A DNA stretch of 64,000 nt from an uncultured Bacillota bacterium (GTDB taxonomy: Bacteria; Bacillota_I; Bacilli_A; RFN20; CAG-826), in assembly GCA_949289845.1 (NCBI GenBank), contig CASEPN010000002.1, forward strand, positions 62,001-126,000. The letters run 5' to 3'. Below are positions 13,147 to 20,465 of this stretch, in pieces. A model generated the notes under the pieces. The model was not told the origin of the DNA and ran no database searches. It saw nothing but the letters and a program-made list of their open reading frames with translations. How positions within the stretch are numbered: position 1 is the first letter of the stretch; every line of letters begins with the position of its first letter. Made by a program: the position numbers and the translations under genes.

Positions 13147-14316
13147 ATGGCGAACAAGAAGAACGGCAAGAAGGCCCCGAAGAAAGCGCACCCCTTCTGG
13201 GCCAGGCTCTGGAGCGGGTTCCGCTACTGGCTCCAGACCCTCTGGAGCAACGGCGCCTGCCTTTTGGCAAGGGGGAAGCCCTGGTGGGCCTCTCTCCCCG
13301 TGGTGATCCTTTCGATCATCATCGCGATCATCCCGACCGCGGTGGCGATGGGCAACGTCAGCGCCTCGAGCTTCATCACCGGCCAGGACCTCGGGCTCGT
13401 CGCCCCGACGGCCGCCTTCGTCCGCGACATGGAGGAGAAGGGGATCCTCCTTTCGATCGACAAGGACGGGATCCTTTCCGACGAGAACGACTCCTGGGAG
13501 AAGGCCTACGGGGCGAACGACCTCGGGGCCTACTACCATACGGTCGTGCGCGAAGTGCCCAAGCTCCCGGTGGAGACCGACTCCTCCTCGAGCCAGGTCA
13601 TCGGATCCAAGCCCGAGCTCGTCGAGGAGACGATCGTCGACTTCGCCGTCTACTATGACTACGACGGACTCTACCCCTCCGTCACCGACTTCTATGAGTT
13701 CGTCGTCACCGACGAGAACAGCAAGGATCCCAACGGGGAGGACGCCTACTCGGTGAACTCCCTCTTCCTTGATTCCGATGGTTTCATCCTCACCATCATG
13801 CCGAACCTCGTCGATTCCGACGGGCAGAAGGCGGAGACCAGCATCCGCTACTACTGGGACAGCGAGGAGTTCAAGGGCAAGACCCTCGTGAGCCTCCTCA
13901 CGCCGACCTTCGAAGGGGAAGCCCCTCTCCCGGACTCCTACGAGTACCGCGAGGCCTCGCGCCAGGCGTGGGGTCGTTTCCTCGACCTCGCCTATGCCTC
14001 GACGAAGTGGAACGCAGGCTGGACGAACGTCGGCATCATCGCCGCGATCGTCACGGGCACCATCTTCATCATGGGCCTCATCGTCTTCCTTGCCACGAGA
14101 GGGAAGAACAACCCCTACCGCCCCCTCAACTTCTGGGACGCCCAGCAGGCCGTCTACTTCGAGTCTTTCACCTGCGCGGTGATCGCGATGATCCTCGGCT
14201 TCGTCTTCGGCGGCTCCAACTACGTGATGGGGATGACCATCTTCATGATGGTGCTCGCCGTCCGCGTCATCTACACCATCTTCAAGACGATGCGGGGGCC
14301 GATCGCCCAGGGCTAG
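13147..14316 (+). CDS. Integral membrane protein with large external loop (DUF1189-like?)
   Basis: 389 aa. A basic N-terminus (about 45 residues) is followed by one transmembrane helix (about 48-68), an extracytoplasmic domain of about 220 residues, and three closely spaced C-terminal helices (about 295-316, 339-356, 358-380). The connecting motif NPYRPLNFWDAQQAVYFESF is distinctive. The plan of one N-terminal helix, an outside domain and a C-terminal helix bundle recalls DUF1189/MalA-type membrane proteins, but this one is longer and the match is uncertain. It is followed by a strong terminator and has its own promoter, so it is monocistronic. Confidence 0.7.
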   Translation: MANKKNGKKAPKKAHPFWARLWSGFRYWLQTLWSNGACLLARGKPWWASLPVVILSIIIAIIPTAVAMGNVSASSFITGQDLGLVAPTAAFVRDMEEKGILLSIDKDGILSDENDSWEKAYGANDLGAYYHTVVREVPKLPVETDSSSSQVIGSKPELVEETIVDFAVYYDYDGLYPSVTDFYEFVVTDENSKDPNGEDAYSVNSLFLDSDGFILTIMPNLVDSDGQKAETSIRYYWDSEEFKGKTLVSLLTPTFEGEAPLPDSYEYREASRQAWGRFLDLAYASTKWNAGWTNVGIIAAIVTGTIFIMGLIVFLATRGKNNPYRPLNFWDAQQAVYFESFTCAVIAMILGFVFGGSNYVMGMTIFMMVLAVRVIYTIFKTMRGPIAQG

Positions 14317-14995: not shown

Positions 14996-15016
14996 AAAAA
15001 ACCCCTTCGCGGGGCT
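14996..15016 (-). terminator. Rho-independent terminator after the signal peptidase gene
   Basis: On the minus strand GCCCC and GGGGT close a GCGAA loop followed by a run of six T, about 17 nt past the stop of the peptidase gene. Confidence 0.85.
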
Positions 15017-15032
15017 TGGGGGTCAGGAGGCC

Positions 15033-16025
15033 TTATTCCTTGGGCTCCTCGATGGGGGCCTTCTCTTCGCTCAGGAGCCGTTTCACGAGCTGGCGGTGCC
15101 CTTCCATGACGTGGTGCTTCGTCTCTCCGTCGATGATGGGGTAGAGGACCTTCTTCCTCGCCTCGATCCTTTTCCCAAGCGAGATCTCGAAGATGTCGTA
15201 GCATCCCACCAGCACGAGCCCGAAGCAGACGGCGATGATGCCGATGTCGCTCTGGAGGTAGCCGATCGTCATGCCGAGGCCGACGTTCTGGAAGCCGTTA
15301 TATACCCCGACGATCTTCTCGAAGGGGACGTCCACCTCTTCGACGAGGCTCGCGGAGTTCGCGTCCCCGCGGAAGGTGTAGAGGTCGCCCTTCTCGGTCT
15401 CCTGGATGGAGATGAGCCGGTGGACGAGGATCCTGTCCTCGCCCTGGAAGGCGTAGATTCCGTATAGCTCCATGTCCTCGGGGGAGCTCACCTTGTCGAG
15501 CCCGACGAGCGCCATCGCGGGGATGTCCTCGGTCAGGTTGTTCTCGACGAGGTAGGAGTTGCTCTTGTTGTCCTCCTCCATCGACCCGGTGCGGATGATG
15601 AGGCAGGTCGTGTCCCCGAAGAGGAAGGTCTCGCCCGAGGCGCGGGAATAGGCGGCGAAGGCAAGGACGGAGAGGCAGAGGAGGTAGACGATCACGAGGA
15701 CCGTGTTGGCGAGGACCTTGAGGCCGTTCTTGCGCTTCATGACGCCTTTGACGTGCTCCTCGAGGGAGGGGATGGCCTGGTACTTCTCCTCAAGCGTCAT
15801 GTTCTGGTCCTGGACGACCTCGTCCACGTGCTTGAAGTAGCGGGGGTTCTCCTTGATGACTTCCTTCTTGATGTAGGAGTCCTCGAGGGAGCCGTCCACG
15901 CACTTCCTGTAGTAGCGGTAATACAGGTAGAAGAGGATCCCGAAGGCAACGGTCAGGAAGAAGATGACGACGATGGAGACGACCATCGAGGTCGCTTCGA
16001 TGCGGTTCATCGCGAGTGTGAGCAT
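15033..16025 (-). CDS. sipW: SipW-type (S26B) signal peptidase I
   Basis: 330 aa. An N-terminal membrane helix (about 15-36) and an about 65-residue charged cytosolic segment precede the peptidase: a second helix (about 103-126), then the catalytic blocks IIRTGSME (Ser148), RILVHRLIS (His202) and FRGDANSASL (Asp221). The Ser/His/Asp arrangement, with His in place of the Lys of ordinary bacterial SPase I, is characteristic of the archaeal/ER/SipW class S26B. A C-terminal helix follows (about 252-275). SipW processes the secreted TasA-type matrix proteins in Bacillus. Here it follows three genes with SipW-type signal sequences, so those are the likely substrates. The start was chosen at ATG 16025 with AGGAGG eight nucleotides upstream. 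Confidence 0.88.
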   Translation of the reverse strand: MLTLAMNRIEATSMVVSIVVIFFLTVAFGILFYLYYRYYRKCVDGSLEDSYIKKEVIKENPRYFKHVDEVVQDQNMTLEEKYQAIPSLEEHVKGVMKRKNGLKVLANTVLVIVYLLCLSVLAFAAYSRASGETFLFGDTTCLIIRTGSMEEDNKSNSYLVENNLTEDIPAMALVGLDKVSSPEDMELYGIYAFQGEDRILVHRLISIQETEKGDLYTFRGDANSASLVEEVDVPFEKIVGVYNGFQNVGLGMTIGYLQSDIGIIAVCFGLVLVGCYDIFEISLGKRIEARKKVLYPIIDGETKHHVMEGHRQLVKRLLSEEKAPIEEPKE

Positions 16026-16047
16026 CCTTGTCTTCCTCCTGTTCCCT

Positions 16048-18381
16048 TTAGTTTCCTGGCTTCCATAGGTAAAGGGCCATGCTGCCCTGGGGCTCGTAGG
16101 TCGCTCCCGAGCCCTCGTAGAACTCCATCGGGGTGAAGATCCTCCCCGTGGTGATGTCTTGGAGGTAGGAGCCCGTCGACCGGTATACCTCATCGAGGAT
16201 ATCCGCGAACGTCTTCGCCGAGGTCCCGTCCTTGGAGGCGAACGAGGTCTCCGGGGTCAGGGCCTCGCTTTGCCGGAAGGCCTCGAAGCGGTAGTTGTAG
16301 ATGCTGGTGTCCACGAACCCCTTGAGGCTTCCGGAGGCGTGGGTGGGGGCGTTCTCGATGGCGATGGACGTGCTGACGTTCACGTAGTAGACCGCCCTCC
16401 GCCTGCCGTAGATCTTGACGGCGGACGGGACGTTCACGCCGTCGGTTGTCTCCGCCATCTCCACTGTGATGAGGAGGTCGTAAGAACCTTCCGAACCCTC
16501 ATTCGGCCGCACAAGCATTACCGAACCGTCCTGCCACGTATACGTGAACGTTTCGAAATAGGTGCCACTGAAGTCCCCATAGTCATACCCTCCAGAGGAA
16601 TTAGAAGGCCCCGCTTCTCCCGGTTTCATTTGGTAGGTTGTGAAGGATTCCTGGTTGGCGAGCTGGATGGCGAAGATGTCGTTCGAAAACTGCGCGTTAC
16701 CGACGTTGTAGGTTGTTTCCCCGTCGAGGTTCACGTTCATCAGGGTGTAGGTGTGCTGGGTGGGGCCGGCGACCTGAGTGAACGCCTTCCCGTTGCTGAA
16801 GCTAGCAGAACCTGTATCCCCAAGGACCAGGCGAGGCTCGTACACCCTCTCCAGGACGATTGCCAGGGCGCGCGTCTGGGCGTAGTAGGTGTAGTTTCCC
16901 CAACTGGACGTGTACCTAGCAGTCGTAACGAGTTTCGTGTGATTGATGATGCGGATCTGATAAGGGGTGATCCCGCGTCCTTCTAAGGCGTTCTTGATGT
17001 TGCCTTCTTTTGAGGCAAGGCCGTTGTTTGCCGTGAACTGGTCAGGCCAATCGCGCCAGTCAGAAGTCTCATTTAATGCCTGGTCATCATTGATGAGGTC
17101 GACAAAATAAATGTTGTAGCGACCGCTTAGGCCAGTGATGCTACCTGTTGCAGCGCCGTCTTTTGAGTCCGCCTCTGCGATATAGAACCTCAGGCTTTCG
17201 TCATGGTCAATCGTGCCATCTCCGGAGCTTCCGCTAGCGTGCGATTTTTGAATCCGGCTATCTCCGTCCCAACGCCCTGAATCTTCAGTTCCGGGCCAAC
17301 CCGCGCCTACTCCATACTTATTTCCACTAGACCGGTTCGGATCCAAGGTGAAGCCAAGGGACGATCCGCTGCCTTCTTCAAAGAGGACGTTCTCGTATCG
17401 GAACACCTCAATCCTCGTCCCGCCTGAGACTTGTCTTCTAACCGCTTGGCTCAGCTGGGGGTCATACGTCGCGTTCGATCCCTGCCCGCCCATGTCGGAA
17501 CCTTCCCCGGGGAAGAGGTCCACCCCGATCGCGTCCGTTAGGGTCTCGCCCTGGTCCGCCGCATGGTTGTTTTTTCCGGTGCTGAGGATGGGATAGAGGA
17601 CGAGGTCGTCCCGCCCGTTGCCGTCGATATCGCGCACGTAGTTGCTATAGCTTTCTGCAAGAAGCGTGTTCGCGGAAAAAAGGACGAGGGTGGAATCGTT
17701 TGGGTAGTACCCATCCACGCGGATGTAGTCATTGTTAACGCTGCCGGTCCACCTATTGTCCTTGAGGTTATCTAGGGTTGGCCAATGGAGATGCACTTCC
17801 CCGGTCGTCTCGTTCCCTAGGGCGAAGTTGCACACCAGCATCGGGGTCCACCCGATAAGGGAGAGGGGGAAGGTCTCCCCGTTCTGGCCGGTGGTCCTGT
17901 CGATAACCTCCGAACGGAAGGCGCTGTTGATTTCCTCCAGCTCCGCGTGGGTGATGGACGTCTTCTGGGAGAAGACCCGGTAATACTGGGTTCCCGCGCT
18001 TACGTGGGTCTCGGCCATCTCGAAACGCCCGAGCTTGGGCTCCGCTCCGCTCTCGCCTTCTCCTCTGTAGTAGGCGTGGTCTGTCGAGAAAGAGGATTGG
18101 TTCCAGTCGAGAATCTGAGGACCCTGGCTGTCGTCCTTAACCAGGCTTGTTTGAGGCGTCACCTGCGCAGCGAAGTAGACGTCGTAGAACGTCTGTCCCG
18201 CGTAGTCGGGGTCGTTGTCGTCCCCGAGGACGTGGTTGTCGCGGATGGGGTCGCCCTGGACGAGGACGTTAGCGCTGTCGGAGGCCTCCTCAAAAGCGAA
18301 CATCCACGCGGCGGATCCCGCGGGGACGAGGGTCGCCAGGAGGGCGATCCCCCCGAAGAGGGCGAAGAGGTGCCTACGCAT
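16048..18381 (-). CDS. Large secreted protein with SipW-type signal sequence
   Basis: 777 aa. The N-terminus MRRHLFALFGGIALLATL ends near GSAAWMFAFEE, a SipW-dependent signal pattern (Gly-Ser/Ala-x-W-x-F) that resembles its two upstream neighbours. The mature part is rich in Asn, Gly, Thr and Tyr, as in extracellular adhesins. It contains DIDGNGRDDLVLYP (about residue 253), a calcium-binding-like motif as in FG-GAP/VCBS repeats. No C-terminal anchor or LPxTG is seen. Its ATG overlaps the end of the upstream gene by 8 nt; sipW begins 22 nt downstream. Part of the gene (about 16550-17900) is AT-richer than the flanks. Possible role: filament cap, adhesin or matrix protein. No family recognised. 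Confidence 0.7.
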   Translation of the reverse strand: MRRHLFALFGGIALLATLVPAGSAAWMFAFEEASDSANVLVQGDPIRDNHVLGDDNDPDYAGQTFYDVYFAAQVTPQTSLVKDDSQGPQILDWNQSSFSTDHAYYRGEGESGAEPKLGRFEMAETHVSAGTQYYRVFSQKTSITHAELEEINSAFRSEVIDRTTGQNGETFPLSLIGWTPMLVCNFALGNETTGEVHLHWPTLDNLKDNRWTGSVNNDYIRVDGYYPNDSTLVLFSANTLLAESYSNYVRDIDGNGRDDLVLYPILSTGKNNHAADQGETLTDAIGVDLFPGEGSDMGGQGSNATYDPQLSQAVRRQVSGGTRIEVFRYENVLFEEGSGSSLGFTLDPNRSSGNKYGVGAGWPGTEDSGRWDGDSRIQKSHASGSSGDGTIDHDESLRFYIAEADSKDGAATGSITGLSGRYNIYFVDLINDDQALNETSDWRDWPDQFTANNGLASKEGNIKNALEGRGITPYQIRIINHTKLVTTARYTSSWGNYTYYAQTRALAIVLERVYEPRLVLGDTGSASFSNGKAFTQVAGPTQHTYTLMNVNLDGETTYNVGNAQFSNDIFAIQLANQESFTTYQMKPGEAGPSNSSGGYDYGDFSGTYFETFTYTWQDGSVMLVRPNEGSEGSYDLLITVEMAETTDGVNVPSAVKIYGRRRAVYYVNVSTSIAIENAPTHASGSLKGFVDTSIYNYRFEAFRQSEALTPETSFASKDGTSAKTFADILDEVYRSTGSYLQDITTGRIFTPMEFYEGSGATYEPQGSMALYLWKPGN

Positions 18382-19042
18382 CGGGGTAGTCCTCCCCCGC
18401 GTAGCGGATCGTCGCGGTCAGCGAGAACTGGCTCGCGTTCAGGAGGTCGCTCAGCGCCCAGTACTCGTAGGTGCTGGTCGGCTCCTGCCCGTCCTTCCAT
18501 TCGAAGACGGGAGAAAAGGTGATGACGCTCTCCTTGTCCTCGTCCAGGATGGCCGAGGGGATGATCGCCTTCGTCGCGGAAAAGGAGAGGGAGGAGACGG
18601 TTTCCTCGCTTTCCTGGAGCTGGATCCTCTGGAGGAACTCCGACTCCGCGGCTTCCCCGCCTTCGCCGGCCTGGAAGCCTTCTATCGACCAGCTGAGCTC
18701 GTAGGAGAGCGTCTCGTCGATCGCATATCCCTTGAAGGTAAGGCCGATGCTCCTTGGGGCGAACTCCAGCCTCATCTCGTCCTCCCCGTTCATGAGGAGG
18801 CGGTAGTGCTCGTAGAGCTGGATCGAGGCCGAGGACCCGTTCGAGCCGTAGACGACATGAGGGATGTCGTTGACGACGAGCTCGCCGATTTCCGCGCGGG
18901 CGCGTACCTTGATGGAACCGCCTAGCCCGAGAGAAGGATTGCCGCTATCGAAGGTCCACGTCGAAAACCCGGTGCCCACGACCGCCCCGAAGGACAAAAG
19001 GGGCACCACGACGGACGCGACGATTCTCGAGAGCTTGGGCAA
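18374..19042 (-). CDS. TasA/camelysin-like exported protein 2
   Basis: 222 aa from a TTG start with AGGAGG eight nucleotides upstream; no in-frame ATG fits. The signal sequence runs to VVGTGFSTWTFDSG, closely matching the GSGFSAWTF motif of the next gene upstream, the pattern cleaved by SipW in TasA, TapA and camelysin. The mature part is predicted beta-rich with alternating charged residues and no Cys. It lies between two other proteins with such signals and shares their transcript. A 9-bp hairpin lies between it and the upstream gene. I infer a secreted, possibly fibre-forming subunit; the mature part was not matched to a known family. Confidence 0.68.
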   Translation of the reverse strand: MPKLSRIVASVVVPLLSFGAVVGTGFSTWTFDSGNPSLGLGGSIKVRARAEIGELVVNDIPHVVYGSNGSSASIQLYEHYRLLMNGEDEMRLEFAPRSIGLTFKGYAIDETLSYELSWSIEGFQAGEGGEAAESEFLQRIQLQESEETVSSLSFSATKAIIPSAILDEDKESVITFSPVFEWKDGQEPTSTYEYWALSDLLNASQFSLTATIRYAGEDYPDA

Positions 19043-19066
19043 AACGCACCCCTCCTGGAATGAGCA

Positions 19067-19098
19067 AGCGACGGGACGGGAGAGCCCACCCCGTCGCT
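19067..19098 (-). other. Intergenic hairpin between the two TasA-like genes
   Basis: AGCGACGGG and CCCGTCGCT form a perfect 9-bp stem with a 14-nt loop and no T-run. It sits between the stop of the first gene and the ribosome site of the second, where an mRNA-processing or stabilising hairpin could set different protein amounts. Confidence 0.5.
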
Positions 19099-19128
19099 CA
19101 GGCTGACGGTTGTCGAAGAGAAGAGAGG

Positions 19129-19767
19129 CTATGCGGTCTTCGCGGTGATCGTGGCGTCGACGTAGACGTTCAGGCTGAAGGACTTGCCGTCGAGGTCGGC
19201 CTTCATCGAGTTGTACGATTCCGCGGTCGAGGGCTTGGCGGCGTAGATGATGCTCTTGAGCGAGCCGATCTCGATCGTCCAGGTGCCGTAGGTGTCGGTG
19301 CCGCTGGTGCTGGTGGCGTAGCTGCCGCCGATGTTGGAGATGGTCCCGGCGCTGCTCTCCCCATTGTAGTTGCCGTTCCAGGTGATCCAGTTGGTGAGAT
19401 TCGTGGCGTCCTTGGTCTCGAGCACGACCCAGTACTCAATGGCGACGTTGTTGGTCTCGAGGAGAGTGGGGTAGTCCTTCCAAGTGATGGTGGCGGTGAG
19501 GGTGTCGCCCGTGTTGTAGCTGATGTTGTAGGAGATGCCCTCGGAAACGTTGGTGTTGCCGATGCCGTCCTGGTCGAGGGTGAGGGTGAAGGTCTCGGCG
19601 TTCAGGGCGACGCTCATTCCCTCGACGAGCGGGGTGACGCTGATGGTGCCAGTGATGCCGTCCGCGACGCGGGCGGAGCTGGTGAACGTCCAGGCGGAGA
19701 AGCCGGATCCGACGATGGCCGCGGCCCCGAGGACGGGAAGCGCGAAGGTGAGGAATTTCTTGTGCAT
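19129..19767 (-). CDS. TasA/camelysin-like exported protein 1
   Basis: 212 aa. The signal MHKKFLTFALPVLGAAAIVG is followed by SGFSAWTFTSSA, the SipW-type pattern, so cleavage is expected near Ser-Ala-Trp. The mature protein starts with VADGITGTISVTPLVEGMS and is rich in Thr, Ser, Asn and Gly with strong beta propensity and no Cys, like TasA-family subunits. It is the first gene of the four-gene minus-strand operon ending in sipW, has AGGAGG before the ATG, and a promoter candidate in the 60-90 nt upstream. As first gene, followed by an intergenic hairpin, it may be the most abundant product, as expected for a major fibre subunit (inference). Confidence 0.72.
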   Translation of the reverse strand: MHKKFLTFALPVLGAAAIVGSGFSAWTFTSSARVADGITGTISVTPLVEGMSVALNAETFTLTLDQDGIGNTNVSEGISYNISYNTGDTLTATITWKDYPTLLETNNVAIEYWVVLETKDATNLTNWITWNGNYNGESSAGTISNIGGSYATSTSGTDTYGTWTIEIGSLKSIIYAAKPSTAESYNSMKADLDGKSFSLNVYVDATITAKTA

Positions 19768-19856: not shown

Positions 19857-19991
19857 TCCGTGCGAAGCCTACGTTTCGTAGACTAATTTCACCCCCCCCT
19901 TTTGCTTGGAAAAGATAGGAAACCAATAGATTTTGTCGAACGTTTTTGTCCCCTTTCCTGGACATTTCCCATTCGGGCGAAAAGCGAGAAT

Positions 19992-20060: not shown

Positions 20061-20465
20061 GGGGTCGTTCTGGCTTTGACGGGGGATCATCCGGACTTCG
20101 ATCGCAGTGGCGTGACGAGCCCTAACGTCGACACAAAGATAACTGCCAACAGCTATCCTGTTTGGAGGCAGGGCTCTGCCCGCGTCTCCTACGCCGCGGC
20201 CTAACTAGGTAATCCACGGATTCCCTCCTCATGATGAAGGAGGGCCGGCTCGTCCTCCTCCCCTCGCGTCCCGGGGGAGGGCAGGGCGTCATCAGGGGCG
20301 ATAAGAGCCTGCCTCCGGCCCGGGGCGGGCTACGAAAACCCTCAGGGCCTGGGCTCCCCGGGAAATGGTTCTGCCTTACCGGGGGCGACACCTGCAGGAC
20401 CTAAACTGTAGAAGTCGTCGCCTGGAATCCTTCGGACAGGGGTTCGAATCCCCTCGACTCCACCA
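20061..20465 (+). ncRNA. ssrA: tmRNA (ssrA)
   Basis: 405 nt. The 5' end GGGGTCG pairs with CGACTCC at the 3' end to form the 7-bp acceptor stem, with the CCA encoded at 20463-20465. The tRNA-like part also shows TTCTGGCTTTGACGGG at the 5' end and a T-arm with GGGTTCGAATCCC. The tag frame ends TAC GCC GCG GCC TAA (stop 20202-20204). Its most likely start is GAC at 20130, giving a 24-residue tag that ends RQGSARVSYAAA. tmRNA rescues stalled ribosomes and marks the products for proteolysis. The final -SYAAA resembles the -NYAFA end of mycoplasma tags, and the tag is longer than the usual 10-14 residues. The resume codon is inferred, not proven. Confidence 0.95.

Follow-up and report, generated by a model that had tools for sequence, protein, structure and literature searches.

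A SipW-type export cassette with a candidate phase-variable promoter and diversifying exported proteins in probably wall-less Bacilli

What might three exported proteins do that are encoded together with a signal peptidase of their own? The question is raised by a 64-kb stretch of DNA (hereafter the window) from an uncultured, gut-type bacterium whose genome assembly amounts to 1.3 Mb at 98% completeness, and whose closest relative loci belong to uncultured Firmicutes/Bacilli assemblies. Open reading frames across the window confirm the arrangement described in an earlier sequence-only reading of this DNA, with three exported-protein genes and a peptidase forming a single minus-strand operon that has ribosome-binding sites ahead of its genes. 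Gene A (19129–19767; 212 aa) carries the SipW-type signal SGFS/AWTF and is the proposed major subunit; gene B (18374–19042; 222 aa), which has a TTG start, is a paralogue of A and the proposed minor or base subunit; gene C (16048–18381; 777 aa) encodes a large exported protein, proposed to be a rare and variable tip or adhesin. The SipW-type (S26B) signal peptidase follows (15033–16025; 330 aa), and an intrinsic terminator recognized by eye, AAGCCCC-GCGAA-GGGGTTTTTT (14996–15017, minus strand), closes the operon, although the promoter/terminator scan did not list this hairpin. A tmRNA gene lies divergent from the cassette, on the plus strand (20061–20465), and the gene for a 389-aa membrane protein (MANKKNGKKAPKKAHPFWARLW..., 13147–14316) also adjoins the cassette in several relatives (L030, L031, L032 and L033), with a similar gene near L037. 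The reading of the locus that we favour, at even odds, is a surface fibre or coat that is processed by SipW, phase-variable and diversifying, in a probably wall-less lineage.

The peptidase belongs to the SipW class, as had been claimed from the sequence alone. The open reading frame listing begins the gene at 16193, which gives 56 extra residues, but the coding sequence most likely starts at 16025, and with that start the gene does not overlap C. The numbering of the resulting 330-aa form yields exactly Ser148/His202/Asp221, a triad that is invariant in 19 peptidase homologues. The NCBIfam SipW model (NF046067) matches all 19 members of the peptidase family, with a best E value of 5e-18; the window peptidase itself is matched at E 1.3e-10, its 41 bits falling short of the 190 required for an equivalog, and is therefore a SipW relative rather than the Bacillus equivalog. 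A profile match to SEC11C in the PDB (1.8e-5) was also obtained, and the homology to SipW and SEC11, along with Ser-His-Asp in place of Ser-Lys, identifies the enzyme as a member of the ER-type S26B group. The host genome also encodes a separate LepB-type peptidase. The SipW of several relatives has a long acidic tail fused to it, with one to three copies of a domain (L..KY.EL...GLK.RIS...) that has no Pfam match and is possibly cytoplasmic and regulatory (L034:4627–7668, L035:9471–11120, L036:9186–11540, L037:9600–12293 and L076:9297–11255). Elsewhere in the host genome, a second SipW locus (L028:7400–10271) encodes two other exported proteins of 289 and 265 aa, with AGATW and AFSAW signals and their own SipW, with an AAA protein coming after them and without a G tract; a third SipW-like gene (L029:9754–12086) has a neighbour with an ASAWVIND signal that seems split between frames, through either a frameshift or an assembly error.

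The presumed substrates share a distinctive signal. The hydrophobic core is followed by the motif G-x-[SA]-x-[W/F]-x-[F/Y], in some cases slightly altered, in 124 of the 131 A, B and C proteins of the cassette family, in keeping with the SipW-type signals originally read on the three window proteins. G-x-[SA]-x-W-x-F is a variant of the SipW-cognate signal, for which the TIGR04088 model found no match in the host genome at E values up to 10. A signal profile built from A, B, C and their relatives, of which the three are thus members by construction, scores them at 3e-22 to 7e-15 and matches almost nothing else in the host genome. Reading cleavage as G-x-[SA]/x-W places an aromatic residue at P2′, one of the properties that disfavour processing of TasA by LepB (PMC10269814), and a general LepB-type peptidase would be expected to cut such a site poorly. 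Taken together, the conserved signal, the separate LepB-type enzyme and the few other matches to the signal profile give good support to a dedicated peptidase; we consider it very likely that this enzyme serves the export of A, B and C, with predicted cleavage at the signal motif. The features of sortase-assembled pili, an LPXTG motif and a C-terminal transmembrane segment, are lacking from the cassette proteins: LPXTG was found in none of the 131 A, B and C proteins, and a second transmembrane segment in none save one over-extended open reading frame. Away from any cassette, an orphan gene encodes a protein whose signal resembles that of A (LLGTGFAAWEL; L129:1423–2172, G000:C1:244231).

Conservation of the cassette was evaluated using 40 fetched loci, namely the two other SipW loci of the host genome (L028 and L029) and 38 C-bearing loci from relatives. 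Every one of these 38 loci has SipW beside C, together with one or more A/B-type genes transcribed in the same direction, and most of the genes are no more than tens of bases apart; the loci were picked by SipW or C match, and the counts are conditional on this. The A-B-C-SipW order of the window is only partly general: the cassette stays together, but that order is kept in 14 loci, with A-S-B-C in nine (S denoting the peptidase gene), A-C-S-B in six, and other or expanded orders in the rest. Across the 38 loci, each cassette holds two to six A/B-type copies and always a single C, the C family ranging from about 700 to 1000 aa. Within the order, 49 of 279 genomes contain a member of the C family, these genomes span three families or more, and C is rarely seen beyond the order; matches to the A profile over 392 genomes of the phylum are confined to the same order. 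The genes also differ in codon usage. With enolase and rpL9 as the reference, A has a codon adaptation index of 0.682, the highest in the window after enolase, versus 0.355 for C, which is among the lowest. Codon bias is stronger in A than in C at 31 of 38 loci, a count tilted slightly by taking the lowest ENC where A is multiple. This contrast in codon usage suggests an abundant small subunit A and a rare large C.

Comparisons between close relatives reveal that parts of the cassette diverge far more than their surroundings. Between the window and L026, C has a dS of 0.84 with indels, lower at both gene ends, compared to 0.09–0.32 for the flanking genes, 0.14 for SipW and 0.05 for B, which is 97% identical between the two. 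The dS of A is low, perhaps through codon bias. For L047 and L092, six flanking genes on the A side have dS values of 0.04–0.09 and SipW 0.18, against 0.68 for A, 0.96 for B and 1.14 for C. Between L088 and L041, most neighbours are 87–100% identical and C is 32% identical, the whole cassette having been replaced; between L076 and L078, the divergent genes are C and two of the four A copies; the hypervariable pattern is absent from the pair L044/L045. The divergence of A and C, and sometimes B, fits a history in which recombination would have acted together with selection on exposed proteins.

The probable absence of a cell wall bears on what such proteins could build. A PF00905 transpeptidase was not found in the host genome, at 98% completeness, and ten walled controls do match this family; the host is therefore probably peptidoglycan-deficient. 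Two RFN20 families are predicted to be peptidoglycan-deficient (PMC10868615), and the lineage of the window would be placed among them. Uncultured peptidoglycan-deficient Bacilli from animal guts have further been predicted to show few surface proteins, as they lack sortases (PMC10868615). Combined with the hypervariability and with the G tract described below, the probable lack of peptidoglycan favours a surface structure that can be switched over a simple biofilm matrix. In the mechanism that we propose, A, B and C would leave the cell via Sec and be trimmed at G-x-[SA]/x-W-x-F by their own ER/archaeal-type peptidase. The trimmed and abundant A, together with its paralogue B, would then polymerize or pack at the cell surface, the conserved hydrophobic N-terminal W-x-F tail most likely completing the beta-sandwich of a neighbouring subunit in the fashion of TasA. 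The rare, large and variable C would provide the tip or adhesive part, slippage of the promoter G tract would switch or tune the whole cassette, and recombination would swap its exposed parts. Polymerization of A and B and the tip role of C are inferred, and the choice of a fibre over a coat is finely balanced. The trimmed proteins may instead form a two-dimensional S-layer-like coat, or act as non-polymeric membrane-associated adhesins, under the same switch and the same diversification. Coats stand in for walls in other wall-less cells, and both the host genome without a peptidoglycan transpeptidase and the strong codon bias of A would suit this explanation. However, the sole hydrophobic segment is N-terminal and should be removed by the cognate peptidase, leaving A, B and C without a second anchor, and the multiple A/B paralogues with one C per cassette resemble a shaft and tip, such that we regard a coat or adhesin as possible, if somewhat unlikely. 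Sortase-built pili offer a parallel to the shaft-and-tip reading, with a major shaft, minor subunits, a large tip adhesin and a dedicated enzyme in one operon; the cassette differs from them in having no LPXTG, and the order RFN20 has been reported to be without sortases (PMC10868615).

The proposed switch lies upstream of A, where a G8 tract (19892–19899, minus strand; C8 on the plus strand) is the sole G/C run of at least seven in the 64-kb window. The tract is a candidate slipped-strand switch. Runs of at least seven were counted over 683 kb, comprising the window and relatives to a total of 39 loci with C, among which L030 and L031 come from the contigs of L026 and L027. Of 27 such runs, 22, of 7–13 G's and all reading G on the coding strand, are found no more than 400 bp ahead of the cassette's first gene (binomial 6e-32). 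Three further runs, at L084, L086 and L087, were called inside the cassette, where they fall within over-extended first open reading frames and have a TTGAC promoter around them. For 12 of the 27 runs, versus 0.10 expected, the tract is located between a TTGAC −35 element and a −10 element at 15–19 bp spacing; relatives thus present the hallmark of a phase-variable promoter, a homopolymer between −35 and −10. A tract of at least seven was not detected in 14 of the 39 loci, three of which are shortened by contig ends. In mycoplasmas, vlp, maa2 and vmm are switched by indels between −35 and −10 (PMC2268961). Where the flanks of relatives can be aligned, tract lengths differ by a single G (G8/G7, G8/G9 and G11/G10), including G7 in L026 where the window has G8 between similar flanks, these lengths being taken from assemblies instead of reads and the changes being between genomes only. 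A switchable promoter within the cassette family is, in our estimation, likely, and the G tract may be what actually switches it.

The arrangement in the window itself is less clear-cut. The best promoter candidate, the sigma-70-like TCGACA-16-TATCTT (19912–19939, minus strand), lies just upstream of G8, and the tract is not clearly within the −35/−10 spacer; in the host genome it may be either a spacer or part of the leader. The generic promoter scan of the window performed at chance level, and the candidate does not rise above chance by the scan alone; both of its hexamers occur in the stretch alignable with L026. Just past the G tract, the inverted repeat CTACG-AAA-CGTAG (19869–19881, minus strand) is a possible operator or leader hairpin, and similar dyads are present in L026, L027 and L032, with arms that are altered yet still paired in L027 and L032. 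The G tract may alternatively be an assembly artefact or a fixed promoter or leader element, such as a regulator site, a DNA-bending spacer or a start for reiterative transcription, in a cassette that is not phase-variable. A tract that may lie downstream of the best −10 in the genus of the window would agree with this, as would the precedent of the mycoplasma vpma tract, shown not to switch (PMC2268961). Nevertheless, the lengths of 7 to 13 across relatives, the one-base changes between alignable flanks, the placement of the tract in a 15–19 bp spacer and the surface-type hypervariability of the cassette make a fixed element or artefact unlikely.

The identity of the exported proteins was probed by comparisons of sequence and structure. 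Mature A and mature B are homologous (hhalign 99%, E about 6.6e-18, 168 columns). None of A, B and C has a Pfam or NCBIfam match beyond chance, confirming that the mature parts lack a known family, and scans of their relatives (Pfam and NCBIfam for all A and C members, Pfam for B) gave scattered chance matches. A sequence search of the PDB with A and C returned nothing convincing, no relatives were found in viral contigs, and a search of the available literature found no paper describing the cassette; none of the libraries searched contains a description of the three families of exported proteins. Calcium binding by C, proposed from a calcium-binding-like motif, was rejected as a family feature: DIDGNGRDD occurs only in close orthologues, and the aligned positions elsewhere read NVNGKKS, YINGTPT and similar. 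AlphaFold models of A reached a pLDDT of 41 from a single sequence and 51 from a six-row alignment, and are predominantly beta, with a helix preceding the final strand and an N-terminal part of low confidence. Structure searches with the low-pLDDT model gave Ig-like matches at noise level (Foldseek best E 0.025, VIA Z up to 6.9), and the lack of TasA among the listed matches of the model at pLDDT 51 excludes nothing. Given the low confidence of these models, the donor-strand fibre is an analogy with TasA and not a result. A TasA/TapA-like biofilm matrix operon, with subunits that are true but diverged camelysin relatives, is improbable: the enzyme class, the kind of signal and the small, apparently beta-rich subunits are shared, and the profiles of whole proteins can be aligned along the signal segment (71%, 31 columns) and nowhere else, but PF12389 (TasA/camelysin) is found in none of 21 relatives and is not among the A or B family scan matches, while the B. 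subtilis control does match, and no alignment was obtained between mature A or B and 16 TasA-type proteins from Bacilli (mature-part profile probability 0.1).

The cassette nonetheless has recognizable counterparts. Both B. subtilis tapA-sipW-tasA and B. cereus sipW-tasA-capP-calY likewise set an ER-type peptidase beside its own small exported subunits, with an aromatic residue after the cleavage site, and B. cereus has a tripartite set (PMC9674648, PMC10151520, PMC13082335). Unlike in these matrix operons, profiles show no relationship of mature A and B to TasA, C has no match and is about 700–1000 aa long, the promoter bears a G tract, the cassette is hypervariable and the host is apparently without penicillin-binding proteins. 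Archaeal bundling pili (Pyrobaculum, AbpA) are TasA-related filaments, mentioned alongside further donor-strand fibres in PMC9674648, and are likened here by filament type. The phase-variable mycoplasma lipoproteins vlp, maa2 and vmm, surface antigens of a wall-less relative that are switched by −35/−10 spacer indels (PMC2268961), are comparable to the cassette; the cassette differs in its poly-G tract, in substrates that are of SipW type and not lipoproteins, and in having one candidate switch for an entire export-plus-processing set.

Overall, the sequence-only reading stands with regard to a dedicated SipW-type export cassette of conserved, unmatched proteins and is unsupported in its equivalence to TasA; the G tract, the hypervariability of A and C, the contrast in codon bias and the probable lack of peptidoglycan were absent from it. 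We tentatively suggest that these sortase-less, wall-less Bacilli have a filament system not described before, phase-variable as well as antigenically variable, which would combine one poly-G promoter switching the complete cassette, novel donor-strand-type subunits, a large tip protein, its own peptidase and exposed parts swapped by recombination. If true, this would add new protein families, bring an entire module for export and assembly under the contingency-locus control seen in single lipoproteins, and explain how wall-less gut Bacilli meet their hosts, phages and neighbours.
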